From assembly GCF_020042665.1 (NCBI RefSeq), contig NZ_CP083376.1:718001-782000 (forward strand): 64,000 nucleotides of DNA. The letters run 5' to 3'. Each line of letters begins with the position of its first letter. Positions within the stretch are counted from its first letter, which is position 1. Made by a program: the position numbers and the translations under genes. Source of the DNA: Pseudoxanthomonas sp. X-1. Lineage in GTDB: Bacteria > Pseudomonadota > Gammaproteobacteria > Xanthomonadales > Xanthomonadaceae. Shown here piece by piece: positions 233-6,681 of this stretch. Under the pieces are notes generated by a model. The model did no database searches. It worked only from the letters and a program-made list of their open reading frames with translations, and was not told the origin of the DNA.

Positions 233-2070
233 GCGGTCTCTCCTTCGGAAGCGGGGTCGGTGGCGTCCTGGCCGTCATTGCTGGCGAAGCGCGCCTGATT
301 CTGGTGGTAGTAGCCGATCGCGAAGCGGCCTTGTTCCTGGATTGGCAGGCTGCGCGGGAAGTTGGGAGCTAGGGCATCGACGATCTGGCCGATCTCCTTC
401 TCCAGGTTGACTGCTAGTCCCGCCTTTTCCTTGCGCAGCTTCCCGAAATGGTTCTGCGCGCTGCGCAGCAGCACCGGGAAGATGCTGGCCGGTGTCGCGG
501 ATGCGGCACCGTAGTAACGATCGCGGATGGTGGCGTTGATGCGGTCGCCGAGCGCGGCGCGTTGCAGGTTTTCCAGCGACGCGAACAGGCGCCCCAGTAG
601 GTAGCCTGGATCGGTATTGCCTGTGTCGAGACTCATGGGTGGTTCCTTGTGGTCGGTGGACAGTCCTTGTTGCCTGCGCAAGCGCGCGTCGCGTGCCAGG
701 ACAGCCCGGCACAGCGCGATGCGTAATGGGGTGAGTTGTCCGTCGGCGCGGAAGCGCATGACGATGCTGCCGAGCAGGCTTTGGGGGTAGCGCGTCCCGG
801 CAAGGATCGCCCGGATCAGTTCGCCAACCAGTATCGGCGAGACATCCTCGGACTTGGGCTTGCTGTGCTCGTTGTAGATGGGGGCGGTCTGCAGCGCTAG
901 GTAGGCGGGCGTGGGCGGGCGTTTCCACGCCGGCGGCTCCAATGTGAGGTCGTTGTAGTGCTCGGCCAGGCGCTTGGCGAATCCGGCCAGCGTTTGCGTC
1001 TCCCAGAAGCGGATGGACAGGCGCGAGGCATTAGGCGCCAGTCCTAGCACGAAGATGCGCGCGTCGTCGTCCAGCGAGTCATCCAAATCGCGCAACGGCC
1101 GCGCATGGCGGACCTGCTTGATGACCAGTTCCAGCCGCCGGGTGGCTTGACCGTCGGCGATTGCGGGGTCGTCGGCGTCGCGGCTGCGCATGAAATCAGC
1201 AAAAATGTCTTCGGCATTCTGCGCCCGCGCTACGGTACTGGCCTGCGCCCAGAACACCACGGTGGTGTCGCCGATCTGCACGCGCTGGCGGTTGTGTGAG
1301 TCGCGGCGCAGTAGATGGTTGAGGGCGGTGGTGTAGGCGAATGCCGCTTGTTCGGAAACGGGAGCGTTCTCGCCTTGCTGCTTGCCGTAGGAGGTAAAGG
1401 CATCGAGGTTGAAGGAGACGATGGAGGCGCCGGAACTCTGCGCGCCGTTCACGCCCTTGATCGCCGGATGCAACCGCGCCAGCGGTGCCATCGTGCCGCT
1501 GACCAGACACAGGCCGCGGACGCCATCGACACCTAGGCCCTGTTGCCGGTCCCAGGCCGCGCGTGCAGCGGGACGCTCGTGCAGAGGTCCCTGGTCGCTC
1601 TCCAGCCTGAAGGCCAGATTGGTATCCAGCAGTGCTTCGCCATGCGGGGCGAACGCAGGATGAGCGGCGTATTGCTCAGGCGACCATGCCGCAAGGAACG
1701 CCAGCAGCGCCAGCAGCCCGGGATCGTCGCTGCCGACCAGGGCCTGCTGGTGCAACGTCTTGAACGCGGCATGTTCCTGCTCGCTGCGCTTGCTGCTGGC
1801 GCTGACGCCCAGGGCGTAGCTGGTCTTGTCCCAAAGGAAGTTGGACTTGATGCCAGCGGTGCGCTTTTCCGGCTGTGGGACGCGCATGGCCTTGGCGAGA
1901 CGCTTCTTACCCTCGACGCGATGCTCGTCGTGGACGGAAACGACGCTGCCGTCGGCGGCCAGCACCACGGTGTAGCCGATGTTCTGCTGGCTGTAGCCGG
2001 GCGCAGCGATGCCGGATTCAGGGTCGTCCAGTAATCGCTGGTAGTAGTCGGCGAGGGCGGACAGGATCAT
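229..2070 (-). CDS. cas8c: Cas8c (Csd1), type I-C Cascade large subunit
   Basis: The product is 613 aa, a normal length for Csd1. The reading frame is open upstream to 2301, but the ATG at 2070 gives [20 protein letters not shown], the typical Csd1 beginning, and overlaps the cas5 stop codon as ATGA, so I place the start there. Csd1/Cas8c is the large Cascade subunit that recognises the PAM and opens the target DNA. In I-C systems the small subunit Cas11 is translated from an internal start near the 3' end of this gene; an internal initiation in the last third is therefore plausible here, but I cannot pick the codon with confidence. Neighbours cas5 and cas7 overlap it on both sides, showing one operon. 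Confidence 0.93.
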
Positions 2071-2741
2071 GCGCGCACCCCGCGGTCCTGCGGCGGTGGC
2101 ACCGCGACTAGCCCATCGACCATCCGCGCGCGAAAGAAGCGCGGGGTCATGCCGTCGGCGAAGTCGATGTCGTGCAGCATCCAGCCCAGGTCGCGTTCGC
2201 CGGACAAGGCCGGGTCGCTGGCTGGTGGCGTGTCGTCGTCGCCGAGCAAGGCGAAGCTGGCGGGAAACTCGCGGGTGCCAAGGCATGGCGCCTGGAAGCA
2301 CTGCCCGCGCCGTGCGCGGCGGTTGAAGATGTCCAAGTGCTTGCCGACGTTGTCGTCGGGGCCTGCCTTGTCGCTCATCTCGAAGTGCGCGGCGATAATG
2401 TAACCGACGTCGCGCAGCACGGTGGCGGCTCGCTGTTGCCGATCCTCCTCAACGTAACTGACCAGTTCGTCGGTACGCCCGGCCTTGATCGCCTTGCCGA
2501 CACTGGCGGCAGACAGCTTGCTGCCAACCTCGTTGCGGCGGATCGACTCGAACCGGATCGGTTTGAGCACCTGGACGCTGTCCACCACCCAGCGGATCGC
2601 CGGCTTCCAGTGGATCGCTTCGAGAATCCCGCGCGCGGCCGATGGCGTGATGATGTCGTAAGACACCCGCTCCACCTTCATTTCCGGACGCGTGAACAGC
2701 GCCCGCTCGCCCCAAACATGAAGTCTGACTCCGTAACTCAT
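2067..2741 (-). CDS. cas5: Cas5c (Cas5d), pre-crRNA endoribonuclease of type I-C
   Basis: The 224-aa product begins MSYGVRLHVWGERALFTRPE, and continues with VERVSYDIITPSAARGILEA, typical of the Cas5d family. In type I-C, which has no Cas6, Cas5 cuts the CRISPR repeat at the 3' base of its hairpin, leaves an 11-nt 5' handle and stays as the cap of Cascade. The family length is about 220-240 aa, so this is full length. The start at 2741 has a GGGAG/AAGG region just upstream. The gene is separated from cas3 by about 390 bp, unusual for an otherwise overlapping operon; that gap holds the crRNA-like element described below. Its enzyme activity would be needed to process that element. Confidence 0.93.
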   Translation of the reverse strand: MSYGVRLHVWGERALFTRPEMKVERVSYDIITPSAARGILEAIHWKPAIRWVVDSVQVLKPIRFESIRRNEVGSKLSAASVGKAIKAGRTDELVSYVEEDRQQRAATVLRDVGYIIAAHFEMSDKAGPDDNVGKHLDIFNRRARRGQCFQAPCLGTREFPASFALLGDDDTPPASDPALSGERDLGWMLHDIDFADGMTPRFFRARMVDGLVAVPPPQDRGVRA

Positions 2742-2752
2742 CCTTGTTCTCC

Positions 2753-2781
2753 CGCCCGTCGGGGCGTGTCTTCACGGAAGA
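2753..2781 (-). other. Two tandem small hairpins in the cas5 leader
   Basis: Two short inverted repeats lie between the crRNA-like element and the cas5 start. One has arms CGCCC (2753-2757) and GGGCG (2762-2766); the other has arms TCTTC (2769-2773) and GAAGA (2777-2781). With the stronger hairpin at 2782-2802 they form three consecutive stem-loops within 50 bp. No U-tract follows, so they do not look like a finished terminator. They could protect the 3' end of the small RNA or tune readthrough into cas5. What is seen is the symmetry only; any function is inferred. Confidence 0.5.
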
Positions 2782-2855
2782 CCCCTCTCCTTCGGAGAGG
2801 GGCATGTGTTACTTCAGTCGCACCACACAAGTTTCAATCCACGTTCTCTCAGAAC
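2782..2855 (-). ncRNA. crRNA-like RNA (CreA/CreR-like) with degenerate I-C repeat
   Basis: Read on the minus strand, the element has three parts. First, a repeat-like unit: a 5-bp hairpin with arms GTTCT/AGAAC and loop GAG (2855-2843), followed directly by CGTGGATTGAAAC (2843-2831), which is the invariant 3' end of type I-C repeats. Second, a 28-nt guide beginning TTGTGTGGTGCGACTGAA (from 2830). Third, a strong hairpin with 9-bp arms CCCCTCTCC and GGAGAGGGG (2802-2782) where the next repeat hairpin would be. This is the layout of a mature crRNA: 5' handle, guide, 3' stem-loop. The repeat is single and its stem differs from a usual I-C stem, so it is not an array. The layout fits known CreA antitoxin RNAs and CreR regulators that sit among cas genes. 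Expression is not shown, and I see no clear private promoter. Confidence 0.72.
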
Positions 2856-2862
2856 ATCTGTC

Positions 2863-3018
2863 TTACGAGTCCTCCAATCCATGGGCTGCTGACCGCCAAG
2901 GCAAAGAGAACGACAAGCACCCGGGCCACGCAGACGGCTTTTCCCGACTTTTGATGTCTAGTCTCAGGCTGATGCTTGAGTAGTTGGAGTCCTTCTCTTC
3001 CTTCTCTTGCTGAGACAT
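2863..3018 (-). CDS. 51-aa ORF between cas3 and cas5 (creT-like candidate)
   Basis: An open frame of 52 codons starts with ATG at 3018, begins MSQQEKEEKDSNYSS and stops with TAA eight bases before the degenerate repeat hairpin. A Shine-Dalgarno sequence AGGTGG (3031-3026) sits 7 nt ahead, and a promoter with 17-bp spacing lies just upstream. G+C by my count is about 53 percent, well below the neighbouring cas genes. It uses codons that should be rare in this genome (TCA, AGA, CTA, AAA, AGT), several of them close together near codons 14-24. No domain is recognised. In described CreTA modules the toxin is a short RNA or mini-ORF that acts through rare codons, so this could be the toxin part; it could also be a simple leader peptide of the cas5 transcript. 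The protein itself may not matter. Confidence 0.5.
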   Translation of the reverse strand: MSQQEKEEKDSNYSSISLRLDIKSREKPSAWPGCLSFSLPWRSAAHGLEDS

Positions 3019-3051
3019 AACCTAGCCACCTGACGGGCGTTGGTTGGCTGT

Positions 3052-3080
3052 AATTTATTGAATGTTCTTATGAGTTGTAA
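3052..3080 (-). promoter_or_regulatory. Sigma-70-like promoter in front of the small ORF
   Basis: On the minus strand a -35 box TTACAA (3080-3075) and a -10 box TAAATT (3057-3052) are separated by exactly 17 bp, inside a locally A+T-rich stretch of an otherwise G+C-rich region. Transcription would start near 3045 and run through the 51-codon ORF, the crRNA-like element and cas5. The promoter could thus serve a toxin RNA, the Cascade genes, or both. Confidence 0.6.
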
Positions 3081-3099
3081 CTGGAAAATTTTTGAGAGA
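3065..3099 (+). promoter_or_regulatory. Partial protospacer with TTC PAM over the promoter
   Basis: The plus strand reads TTC (3065-3067), the known I-C PAM, followed by TTATGAGTTGTAACTGGA. Aligned with the guide TTGTGTGGTGCGACTGAA of the crRNA-like element, 12 of the first 18 positions are identical (1, 2, 4, 5, 7, 9, 10, 13-16, 18). Two more (3 and 12) would be G-T wobbles, and position 6 is one that Cascade flips out of the duplex. The site covers the -35 box and most of the -35/-10 spacer. Beyond position 18 the match fades. Such a PAM plus partial seed match would allow Cascade binding and promoter block without complete R-loop formation. The end coordinate assumes a guide-length footprint. 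Confidence 0.62.
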
Positions 3100-3110
3100 A
3101 CGGCCGTTCT
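3097..3110. repeat. 14-bp perfect palindrome downstream of cas3
   Basis: AGAACGGCCGTTCT is a perfect palindrome 16 bp upstream of the -35 box and 21 bp after the cas3 stop. On the minus strand it is followed by CTCAAAAATTTT, so it might act as a weak terminator of cas3 or as an operator. It shares GAGAGAAC with the stem of the degenerate repeat at 2843-2855. Confidence 0.4.
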
Positions 3111-3131
3111 GGATCTGGCGGCTTCTGCTCC

Positions 3132-5423
3132 TCACCACACATTGCATTGAGCCTCCAGGAACTGCGGTTCTTGCCAATGCAGCCCGAACCGCGCGTCGTA
3201 GAGCCTCGAATTGCGCAAAGAGACGAACTGCTCGCCATAGCGCTCCGGTGCCACAGGGGCAATCGCGGATGCTTGCCACAGCGACTTGTAGGTCTGCTCG
3301 GGTACCTGCACTAGCCACGGTTGCAGGCGGCGGGCGGCACCGGCTACGCCGATCCGATCGGCGTGTTCCAGTTGGCGCAGCACTTCGTTCACTTCTGCCA
3401 ATTCGCGCTCCGCGACATTTCGGTCGGTCGCATAGGGCGCATACGGCACGATCAGCGGGCGCATGCTCGTCTGGATCATCCGGAACTTCTGAGCCAGGGT
3501 GTCGAATGGCAGGTCGTCCAGATCGGCGGTGCGCAGTTGCGTCAGGATCGCTTCGTCGTCCAGCCGGTTGTCGCCCAAGCGCCGGTACAGCCCCCGGAAG
3601 TAGGCGTGGATGGCCTCCATCGCCAGCAGGTCGTCGCCGTGCGTGCGCTCGACCTCGCGGAAGACTTCAGTGAAGACTTTCAGTTCTTGTGGCGGCTGCC
3701 AGTTCACGGGGGCGAACACCTGCACCTCGCTGGCATCTATCTGGCGCCGGCCCTCGCGATTGCAACGCCCTGCCGCTTGTGCCACCGAATCCAGACCGGC
3801 TTCCGCTCGCAGGACGGTCGGGAAGTCCACGTCCACGCCGGCTTCGATCAAGCTGGTTGCAACCAGTCGGCATGGCCTGCCCGCTTTTAGGTCTTCGCGT
3901 ATCTGCGTCAACGCCGCGCTGCGATGCCGTGCATGCATCAAGGTGGTCAGGTGGCGCGCGCCGGGCTGGTCGGCGATGGCGTCGAACAGAGCGCGTGCGT
4001 GGCGGCGATTATTGACGATGCACAGCACTTGCGCGCGCTGCCGCAATTCCTCGGCCAGCACGTCGTCTTCCAGTGCGCCGACATGGCGCACCCGGACGCG
4101 ACGCAGCTGTGCATACAGCGCATCCGGCTCCGTCATCAGTTCCTCGACGTGTTCGAGGCCTCCCGGGAAGCCCTGGTCCTGGCGCAGCGCAGGCTGGGTG
4201 GCTGTACACAGCACCGGACTGACCCGGTAGTTGCGCGCCAGTTCGTCCAGTAGCGCGACGCAGGGGCGCAGCAGCGTCTGCGGCAGGGTCTGCGCCTCGT
4301 CCAGGATCACCACGCTGCCTGCGATGTTGTGCAGCTTGCGGCAGCGCGACGGGCGGTCGGCGAACAGGCTCTCGAAGAACTGTACCGAGGTGGTGACGAC
4401 GATTGGCGCATCCCAGCTTTCCATCGCCAGCTTGCGCTTGTCGATCGACTGCGGCGCCTTGGCCGGATCGTCGAAGAACGCGCTGTGGTGTTCCAGCACG
4501 ACGTCGTCGCGGTCCTGAATGCGGAGAGCGTGGCGGAACACTGCGGCGGTCTGATCGACGATGCTGGTGAACGGGATCACGTAGATCACCCTGCGCAAGC
4601 CATGCGCGATGGCATGGTCCAGCGCGAACGCCAGCGAGGCCAGGGTCTTGCCACCGCCGGTAGGCACGGTGAGCGAGAACAGGCCGGTACGCGCGTGCGC
4701 CTTGGCCCGCGCTTGGCGCAGGATGGTCGCGCGGATCGGATTGATGCCGCCCTCGGTGGGAAAGGTGGCCAGGTGCCGATCAAGTCGTTCGCGCAGTTCT
4801 TCCAGCGTCGGCCGTGTGCCGACCTCTTCCGCGCGCGTCTTGCGCGCTTCCACACGCCGGTAGAAATCGTCGGTATCGACGAAATCGGCATCGACCAGGC
4901 AGGAGAACAGCATGCGCGCCAGGACCATCATCTGGAAGGCCCGGCGCTCGGTGCGCGGGTGGCCGCTGAATCCCGGTGGCAGTTGCAGCTTGGCGGGCAG
5001 CACGATTTCCCGTTCCCAGGCCGGCAGCAAGGGCGGCAGCTCGCGCGCGCGGTAGTCTTCCGACAGCCGCTCCCGCAACGAGGAGCGAGACGTCAGGTCA
5101 TCGCGGCGTCCGTCGGCCAGCCCCGCGTGGTGCCCGGCGATGCCATAAGCGAGCAGCGTTCCGCCACTGCCATACAGTTCGCAGGCTTTCCGCGCACCCC
5201 AGGTCGCATGGTCCACCCTGGCCGGGTCGCCACCCAAGCGCGCCTGGAACTTCTCGGTGTACTTGCCCAGGTCATGCAACTGTCCGGCCACGCGTGCCAT
5301 CACGTGGCCGCCGAATGCCTCGGCGTAACCCGCCGCCAACTCGCCGACATCGTTCAGGTGCTCGGCCAAGCGCTGCCAGTTGCTCTGGTCTCGACGTTCG
5401 GTTGAATGCGCAAAGAAGTCCAT
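3132..5423 (-). CDS. cas3: Cas3, HD nuclease-helicase of type I-C
   Basis: The 763-aa protein has an N-terminal HD nuclease domain (LHDLGK with H50-D51; GHHAG near residues 97-101) fused to a superfamily 2 helicase. Helicase motifs are the Walker A loop VPTGGGKT (K259), the DEAQ box in VVILDEAQTLPQ (residues 375-378), and the motif V-VI stretch with SLIEAGVDVDFP and AAGRCNREGR. Cas3 is recruited by target-bound Cascade and degrades DNA while unwinding it. Length and order (HD first) fit type I-C. It is the first gene of the operon and diverges from the PLP enzyme gene across about 150 bp, where its promoter should lie. The C-terminus ends in a Trp-stop followed by the unusual gap before cas5. 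Confidence 0.96.
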   Translation of the reverse strand: MDFFAHSTERRDQSNWQRLAEHLNDVGELAAGYAEAFGGHVMARVAGQLHDLGKYTEKFQARLGGDPARVDHATWGARKACELYGSGGTLLAYGIAGHHAGLADGRRDDLTSRSSLRERLSEDYRARELPPLLPAWEREIVLPAKLQLPPGFSGHPRTERRAFQMMVLARMLFSCLVDADFVDTDDFYRRVEARKTRAEEVGTRPTLEELRERLDRHLATFPTEGGINPIRATILRQARAKAHARTGLFSLTVPTGGGKTLASLAFALDHAIAHGLRRVIYVIPFTSIVDQTAAVFRHALRIQDRDDVVLEHHSAFFDDPAKAPQSIDKRKLAMESWDAPIVVTTSVQFFESLFADRPSRCRKLHNIAGSVVILDEAQTLPQTLLRPCVALLDELARNYRVSPVLCTATQPALRQDQGFPGGLEHVEELMTEPDALYAQLRRVRVRHVGALEDDVLAEELRQRAQVLCIVNNRRHARALFDAIADQPGARHLTTLMHARHRSAALTQIREDLKAGRPCRLVATSLIEAGVDVDFPTVLRAEAGLDSVAQAAGRCNREGRRQIDASEVQVFAPVNWQPPQELKVFTEVFREVERTHGDDLLAMEAIHAYFRGLYRRLGDNRLDDEAILTQLRTADLDDLPFDTLAQKFRMIQTSMRPLIVPYAPYATDRNVAERELAEVNEVLRQLEHADRIGVAGAARRLQPWLVQVPEQTYKSLWQASAIAPVAPERYGEQFVSLRNSRLYDARFGLHWQEPQFLEAQCNVW

Positions 5424-5580
5424 TTCCCCATCTCCCTAAGCCGTGCCATACCAGCCAGCTGCAGGTCGTCCCGAGAAAGAGTAGCTCTTCTGGATCGCAC
5501 CGAGTGAGACTCGCAACGGGCGCGGCGGAGGTAGGTGAGGGCGATACAATGGCGCGTCCCTCCCGTCGATGTTTCATCCC

Positions 5581-6681
5581 ATGTCGCAGCGTGACTGGGT
5601 GGCCGCCGCCATCCACAAGATCGAGGCCGACTTCAACCGCTCGGCCGACACCCACCTGATCCCGCTCGAGCTGCCCGGCTATCCGGGCATCGACCTGTAC
5701 CTGAAGGACGAGTCCAGCCATCCCACCGGCAGCCTCAAGCACCGGCTGGCGCGCTCGCTGTTCCTGTACGCGCTGGCCAACGGCTGGCTGCGCGAGGGCG
5801 CGCCGGTGATCGAGGCGTCCAGCGGTTCGACCGCGGTGTCCGAGGCCTACTTCGCGCGCCTGCTGGGCCTGCCCTTCATCGCGGTGATGCCGGCCAGCAC
5901 CTCGCCGGAGAAGATCGCCGCGATCACCTTCTACGGCGGGCAGTGCCATCTGGTCGAGCAGGCCGGGGCGATCAACGCCGAGTCCGAGCGCCTGGCGCGC
6001 GAGCACGGCGGCCACTTCATGGACCAGTTCACCTACGCCGAGCGCGCGACCGACTGGCGGGCGAACAACAACATCGCCGAGTCGATCTTCAAGCAGATGG
6101 CGGCCGAGCCGCATCCGATCCCGGAATGGATCGTGTGCAGCCCCGGCACCGGCGGCACCGGCGCCACGCTGGGCCGCTACGTGCGCTACCGGCGCCACGC
6201 CACGCGCATCCTGTGTGTCGATCCGGAGCATTCGGTGTTCTTCGACTACTACCGCGACGCGCTGGACGGCGCCTGCGATCCGGCGCGCCTGCACCACTGC
6301 GGTTCGCGCATCGAAGGGATCGGCCGGCCGCGGGTGGAGCCGAGCTTCGTGCCGGCCTGCATCGACGCGATGGTCAAGGTGCCCGATGCCCTGAGCCTGG
6401 CGGCGATGCGCTGGGCCAGCGCGACCCTGGGCAGGCGCGTGGGTGGCTCCACCGGTACCAACCTGGTCGGCGTGCTGCATGCCGCCCACGCGATGTGCCG
6501 GGCCGGGCGCCGCGGCTCCATCGTCACCATCCTGTGCGATGCCGGCGATCGCTACGCGCACAGCTATTACGACCCGGCTTGGTACACGCGCTGCGGCATC
6601 GACACCGCCGACAGCGACGCGGCCATCGCCGCGGCCGTGGCCGGCGGCGCCTTGCCCGCACTGGCCACAGCCGCAGGCTGA
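5581..6681 (+). CDS. PLP-dependent enzyme of the cysteine synthase family
   Basis: The product is 366 aa from the ATG at 5581, with an alternative in-frame ATG at 5569. It belongs to fold-type II PLP enzymes: the segment [18 protein letters not shown] carries the Schiff-base lysine (SLKHR), and [19 protein letters not shown] is the substrate/PLP-binding loop. A glycine-rich phosphate-binding loop is visible in [16 protein letters not shown]. These enzymes catalyse beta-replacement reactions on O-acetylserine-type substrates or beta-elimination; the exact substrate cannot be told from sequence. It diverges from cas3 and stands alone ahead of the malonate operon. A TACAAT hexamer at 5545-5550, close to the start, could be a -10 box and would give a very short leader; no good Shine-Dalgarno sequence is visible. 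Confidence 0.85.

Follow-up and report, generated by a model that had tools for sequence, protein, structure and literature searches.

The CreTA, CrePA and CreR modules of CRISPR-Cas loci are already known (PMC12737573). In Haloarcula hubeiense, CreA represses its own creTA promoter, with seed positions 1-5 and 7-11 (PMC8501985), while a response to anti-CRISPRs has been proposed for CrePA (PMC12737573). For type I-C systems, Cas5 is responsible for crRNA processing (PMC10651486), and the Xanthomonas albilineans I-C Cascade without Cas3 brought about an approximately 700-fold repression in E. coli at a TTC-flanked promoter target, with a guide designed to match (PMC10810201).

The locus described here belongs to a type I-C operon on the minus strand, located at the start of the window, i.e., the whole 64,000-nucleotide stretch that was analysed (G000:C1:718001-782000, from the 4.5-Mb genome of Pseudoxanthomonas sp. 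X-1). Its cas3-cas5 gap (2742-3131, 390 bases) probably holds a CreTA/CrePA-like module, in which Cascade together with a crRNA-like RNA would repress a small-peptide gene. The gap is bordered by two genes:

3132..5423, minus strand: cas3 (I-C), the upstream neighbour of the gap
2067..2741, minus strand: cas5c/cas5d (type I-C), the downstream neighbour of the gap

The reading frames that come after cas5 are named cas8c and cas7 by their position. The real I-C array is located outside the window, 5.6 kb from the gap (G000:C1:712972-715183), and comprises 33 repeats ending in CGTGGATTGAAAC. Within the 64-kb window this repeat end occurs once, in the degenerate repeat of the cas3-cas5 gap; genome-wide, it is found in the 33 array repeats, in the gap copy and at 573889. 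The gap element is not an ordinary CRISPR array, as it carries a single handle and not two or more near-identical repeats with spacers. The third location corresponds to a 16-nt lone I-C repeat end, GCGCGTGGATTGAAAC, at G000:C1:573889-573901 (about position 7890 of L144); the ORF at whose 5' end it lies has a phage-integrase domain (PF00589). Carried by a mobile element, such a lone repeat might act as an RNA anti-CRISPR, or else be a relic or a product of chance.

The crRNA-like element of the gap consists of three parts, all of them placed and ordered as in the preliminary description of this DNA:

2831..2857, minus strand: degenerate repeat (psi-R1), its last 13 nt, CGTGGATTGAAAC, identical to the array repeat
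2803..2830, minus strand: guide (psi-spacer) of 28 nt, matching its own promoter at 12/18
2782..2802, minus strand: 9-bp hairpin without a clear U tract

In its 5' part, the degenerate repeat departs from the array repeat, but it retains a 7-bp stem of its own, which had been overlooked (stem-loop 2841-2857, core GTTCT-GAG-AGAAC, followed by GGATTGAAAC). This stem ends at most one base from where the stem of the array repeat ends. The hairpin 3' of the guide represents either a terminator-like end or the remnant of a second repeat hairpin (psi-R2). Its palindrome, CCCCTCTCC-loop-GGAGAGGGG, is present in 5 places in the genome, and a dispersed palindrome is a possible source of the 3' hairpin alone.

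The guide matches in part a PAM-flanked site in the same gap:

3065..3085, plus strand: TTC PAM (3065-3067) and 18-nt protospacer (3068-3085), guide match 12/18
3052..3080, minus strand: proposed promoter, TTACAA-17-TAAATT, weak, overlapped by the protospacer

A TTC with 12 of 18 matching positions, two further wobble positions and one flipped-out position had been reported before, and the pair indeed shows G/A (wobble-type) differences at positions 3 and 12 and a mismatch at position 6; the difference at position 3 places a mismatch in the seed. Among the 2070 TTC or TTT sites of the 64-kb window, only 3065-3085 reaches at least 12/18, and with TTC sites alone it is also the sole such match in the 12-kb cas locus. 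A target at the cas3 promoter was considered and rejected: within 2601-5600, the same site is the sole TTC site at 12 or more. Shuffled guides attain the level of the window match at a frequency of 0.002 to 0.010, so the earlier estimate of a chance match, below one percent, was about right. A whole-genome search for other targets of the guide (TTY plus the first 16 guide bases, at most 3 mismatches) returned the guide itself only; since the promoter site has 5 mismatches in 16, other genomic sites as good as this one could escape such a search. The hexamers of the previously claimed promoter are in place, but they agree with only 7/12 consensus letters (8 with an 18-bp spacer), below the scan threshold of 9. 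The protospacer site is a putative promoter; hexamers resembling -35 and -10 elements overlap the target in only part of the 12 loci checked.

The gap DNA was searched in 394 other genomes of the family, and 4 of them matched, all from one other genus. In G225, the guide TAATGTGATGCAACGGGAG stands against TTT-TAATGCGAAGCAACGGGAT, and in G271, TAATGTAGTGCGACTGGAG stands against TTC-TAATGAGTTGCAACTGGCG; guide and target thus change jointly between the two genomes. In G241, the guide has no match of at least 12/18 in its own gap. In G282 (L063 4811-7500), the module is split by a transposase-like ORF (IS5-like by eye) that is present twice in tandem inside the degenerate repeat; in the left flank of the module, a TTT-flanked site agrees with the guide at 15 of its first 20 positions. 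G011, a relative from the same genus, does not have the module.

Two sets of I-C loci were used for a wider comparison. Genome contigs were scanned for Cas5, and the best 80 of 570 confirmed loci (the named loci), together with G000, G011, G225, G241 and G271, constitute the first set of 85; three of the five added loci were chosen because the module is present. The handle pattern was located without looking at targets, and a guide was counted as matched if the best TTC/TTT protospacer in its own gap plus 80 bases reached at least 12/18, a threshold equal to the window's own value. After one widening of the handle pattern and the extension of the searched region by 80 bases into cas3, 20/24 guides were matched, as compared with 17/22 before. 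The second set, 47 loci in all (5 taken from a list of 12, L148-L168 with 21 and L177-L197 with 21), excluded weaker Cas5 matches and G000; 3 of its 47 gaps were unmeasurable, and 2 of its 9 loci with gaps of 200-500 nt duplicate loci of the first set and were removed. G282 was left uncounted because the insertion splits its module, as were the 15/18 matches of L083 and L158, which fall outside the fixed criteria.

In the first set (best 80 of 570 plus five), gaps are shorter than 200 nt in 46 loci, 200-500 nt long in 28 and longer than 500 nt in 8, the remaining 3 being unmeasurable. The mark of CreTA and CrePA, a degenerate repeat flanking a spacer-like element outside an array, is found in the window and, as a lone handle, in 24 of these 28 gaps of 200-500 nt, vs 1/46 short gaps, most of which are too short to hold one. 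Gaps above 500 nt contain a handle-like string in 6/8 cases, in L103 as an array. The degenerate repeats of G225, G241 and G271 have stems of 6 bp, and a stem of at least 5 bp is present in 15 of the 24 loci (from the best 80 of 570 plus five) vs 33% in shuffles, i.e., modestly above chance. A strong hairpin 3' of the guide folds in most of the 24 loci, with a recognisable second repeat in L111 and L091. The gaps of L067, L074, L127 and L179 have no guide module and encode another ORF of about 100 codons (...VYKIxYPNGKIYVGxDLTD...); the one in L067 has no Pfam match and is GIY-YIG-like by eye.

A spacer with a partial match to a PAM-flanked site, the second mark of CreTA and CrePA, is present in the window (12/18, TTC) and in other loci. 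The own-gap match reaches at least 12/18 in 20/24 loci of the first set (best 80 of 570 plus five) vs 11/552 cross-locus pairs (Fisher p about 2e-25, the cross pairs not being independent). Among the named loci alone (best 80 of 570), 20/80 have the repeat in a gap of 200-500 nt, and 17 of these 20 guides are matched. For chance-like handle strings at other places in the first set (85 loci, best 80 of 570 plus five), a match of 12 or more is present in 3/26 cases, with a larger search space. In the second set, none of 35 short gaps has a handle, while a lone handle is present in 5 of the 7 non-duplicate gaps of 200-500 nt (5 of 45 non-duplicate loci); the own match is attained by 4/5 vs 2/140 cross pairs, with L037 (6) as the exception. 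The promoter match in related loci had been named in advance as one of the points on which the proposal could fall, and it withstood the comparison. Judged from these sequences, the covariation of guide and target holds well beyond the genus of the window. A stray repeat or a chance match is ruled out by the shuffled guides, by the own-gap vs cross-locus counts and by the second set. Below the threshold in the first set are 4 of the 24 loci, L125 (11), L135 (11), L136 (8) and G241 (8). In G241 (L061) and L136, the guide fits the promoter only with one base bulged out (by eye), which reflects either a degenerate pair or a bulge that Cascade tolerates.

A period of six in the mismatches is the known imprint of the bases flipped out by Cascade. 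In the 20 matched loci, the mismatches per position from 1 to 18 amount to 0 1 2 0 0 16 4 4 3 0 2 13 3 2 5 2 6 11; positions 6, 12 and 18 account for 40/74 of them (p about 2e-13), while seed positions 1-5 show 3 mismatches in 100 cells. Such a pile-up at 6, 12 and 18 with a nearly clean seed is, in sequence terms, the flipped-out signature of Cascade. The window pair, at 12/18, is the lowest among the 20 matched loci, jointly with L079, L085 and L091. As for orientation, 22 of the 24 loci of the first set have the module on the strand of cas5 and upstream of it. L134, L141 and L159 have the complete module in the opposite orientation to the cas genes, with its promoter directed away from cas5.

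Between target and degenerate repeat, the gap contains a small ORF that had been overlooked. In the window it falls into two frames:

2863..3018, minus strand: 5' part of the small ORF, 51 aa in this frame, its N-terminal half homologous to the membrane-peptide family
2849..2944, minus strand: C-terminal part of the small ORF in another frame, hydrophobic (...VLVVLFALAVSSPWIGGLVRQMF), with its stop inside the psi-repeat; homologues compared by eye

The small gene of the window thus reads as frameshifted, with the N-terminal half in one frame and the hydrophobic C-terminal half in another; an assembly error is a possible cause. An ATG ORF of at least 45 aa with a strongly hydrophobic stretch is present in the same place in 12 of the 24 loci (best 80 of 570 plus five), where 0.93 would be expected from dinucleotide shuffles and the reverse strand gives 0. 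It is lacking in the other 12, among which L079, L088, L092 and L135 have no ORF that is convincing on inspection. Of the 12 hydrophobic-ORF loci, 8 have Shine-Dalgarno-like motifs ahead of the start. Nine of the peptides could be aligned (MxxxxKxxxxxxYSxxLxLxIxxRxKxSxWxWxxVxLxALVxGSPWLGxLxxxLx) with 21-46% identity to the first, two of them being only weakly alike; they originate from three Xanthomonas-group genomes, Sinimarinibacterium, Oleiagrimonas, Delftia, Candidimonas, Marinobacterium and a Desulfobulbaceae draft genome. Azotobacter vinelandii and Halomonas have peptides of other types in this position, and Ancylobacter and Paracoccus have peptides of 26-32 residues; the inverted modules of L134 and L141 have a short ORF behind the target. 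No family above cut-off was found in Pfam (10 peptides), PHROGs and NCBIfam (6 each) or PADLOC (3), with a few weak hits below it, and a word-based homologue search in 5.8 billion proteins yielded six with E of at most 0.01, of which two were identical to peptides of the query. When the small ORF of G271 is compared with that of G282, 4 codon differences are synonymous and 9 non-synonymous, which gives no sign of selection keeping the ORF, though the insertion breaks the G282 module. The gap ORF is predicted to encode a membrane peptide, which might be toxic.

In the favoured CreTA/CrePA-like module, a promoter just after cas3 would drive the small ORF and then the crRNA-like RNA (degenerate repeat, guide, hairpin) as a single transcript. 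Its repeat would be processed by Cas5, and the resulting RNA would load into Cascade (Cas5-Cas8c-Cas7). The guide, whose match is confined to the seed and short blocks and does not run the full length, may direct Cascade to the TTC-flanked site that overlaps the promoter; because the match is partial, it is proposed that Cascade represses the module without efficient cleavage. Repression of the gap promoter in this manner would parallel that described for the Xanthomonas I-C Cascade. If Cascade were lost or blocked by an anti-CRISPR, the promoter would open and the small peptide would be made, most likely arresting or killing the cell, which corresponds to a guarding of CRISPR of the CreTA/CrePA type. 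The preliminary description had suggested addiction of the cell through a toxin RNA: a CRISPR-controlled module is supported by the covariation, while its product is probably a small peptide and not an RNA toxin. Since the ORF is frameshifted here, addiction may no longer work in this genome.

The window copy itself looks partly decayed, given the frameshifted peptide gene and a guide match at the low end, and it is probably a decaying module of which perhaps only the regulatory RNA is left. For this copy alone, a functionless vestige, or a sequencing error hiding an intact gene, has an appreciable chance of being the better description, short of an even one. The frameshift, the seed mismatch at position 3, the joint lowest match of the 20 matched loci and the absence of the module in the same-genus relative would agree with it, whereas guide, handle, stem and PAM are all retained and a long random decay would blur the match further.

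Autoregulation of the CreR type would explain the module as a promoter that drives cas5-cas8c-cas7 by read-through past the hairpin, together with a crRNA-like RNA by which Cascade sets its own level, the small ORF being incidental. The prevailing position upstream of cas5 on the same strand, the lack of a clear U tract in the window hairpin and the lack of a clear ORF in L088 and L092 are compatible with this explanation, and with its ORF frameshifted the window may have no other function left. CreR targets the cas operon promoter; the window target lies upstream of cas5 but behind cas3, and the three inverted modules face away from cas5 altogether. Hydrophobic ORFs are found far above chance and can be aligned over several proteobacterial groups, and loci with short gaps manage without a module. 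Autoregulation of cas5, also suggested in the preliminary description, is therefore possible in the window and unlikely as a general function, in view of the inversions in L134 and L141; taken as a whole, this explanation appears rather doubtful.

It is less probable still that the membrane peptide is a Cascade-controlled accessory, e.g., a membrane sensor or an anti-phage effector, and not a toxin. The lack of above-cut-off matches in the four family collections searched leaves room for such a role, yet several unrelated peptide types share the same slot, and very small hydrophobic peptides under tight repression would seem to suit type I toxins better. A toxic transcript without a toxic peptide, as in the RNA toxins CreT of H. 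hispanica (PMC12737573) and of Acinetobacter I-F (PMC10097628), could account for L079, L088 and L092, which have no clear ORF, and is the least probable of these explanations in view of the alignable peptides in nine loci and of the Shine-Dalgarno-like motifs.

Since a similar module is present in the same gap of many other bacteria, often with an intact small gene, a working CRISPR machinery appears to hold the expression of a small and possibly toxic protein in check. The comparison leans, by a little, towards a broader statement: I-C systems across Proteobacteria may carry an unrecognised class of guarded modules in the cas3-cas5 gap. Each would be one self-repressed transcript containing a small, usually membrane-spanning toxin peptide and a crRNA-like antitoxin, with peptide types being swapped, each guide co-evolving with its own promoter and mismatches falling mainly on flipped-out bases; the window would then represent such a module in decay. 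If so, the loss or blocking of Cascade would come at an inherent cost in many I-C loci, which bears on the persistence of CRISPR loci, on answers to anti-CRISPR proteins and on possible toxicity upon deleting I-C cascade genes. The gap peptides would likewise be a new set of small membrane toxins, and the guide-promoter pairs constitute a natural data set on the mismatches that Cascade tolerates when binding without destroying its target.

Shmakov et al. 2023 reportedly predicted crRNA-like elements in type I systems in a systematic manner, as standalone repeats and mini-arrays, and that survey might list I-C cases. In the titles and abstract beginnings covered by a literature search, no such I-C module was found, nor any record of gap peptides or of a period-six guide-promoter covariation in I-C.

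Among the described systems, CreR resembles the present module in being a crRNA-like RNA with a repressed promoter inside the cas locus, as would be the case here; in contrast, it acts on the cas operon promoter and is generally uncoupled from a toxin gene (PMC12737573). CrePA is similar in that a protein product is under repression by a crRNA-like RNA and Cascade, which is the arrangement proposed here. CreP is typically a KilA-N-domain protein that blocks division (PMC12737573), whereas the gap peptides have about 26-72 residues and no known domain. CreTA of Haloarcula hubeiense and H. hispanica (I-B) combines a toxin gene with a degenerate mini-CRISPR inside the cas operon and a partial guide match to the promoter, and H. 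hubeiense creTA has the same self-repressed layout of promoter, toxin and antitoxin (PMC8501985). Its toxin is a tRNA-sequestering RNA and processing depends on Cas6, while the present type I-C module would involve Cas5 processing and a predicted membrane peptide. CreTA of Citrobacter rodentium is of type I-E, with a 96-bp ORF without homologues and an antitoxin on the opposite strand (PMC12055562). It is nevertheless comparable to the present module in lying beside cas3, within a 495-bp intergenic region, in its repeat-like and spacer-like elements and in its PAM-flanked target near the promoter (PMC12055562). Its short ORF needs to be translated for toxicity (PMC12055562), and the short ORF of the cas3-cas5 gap can be likened to it by layout.
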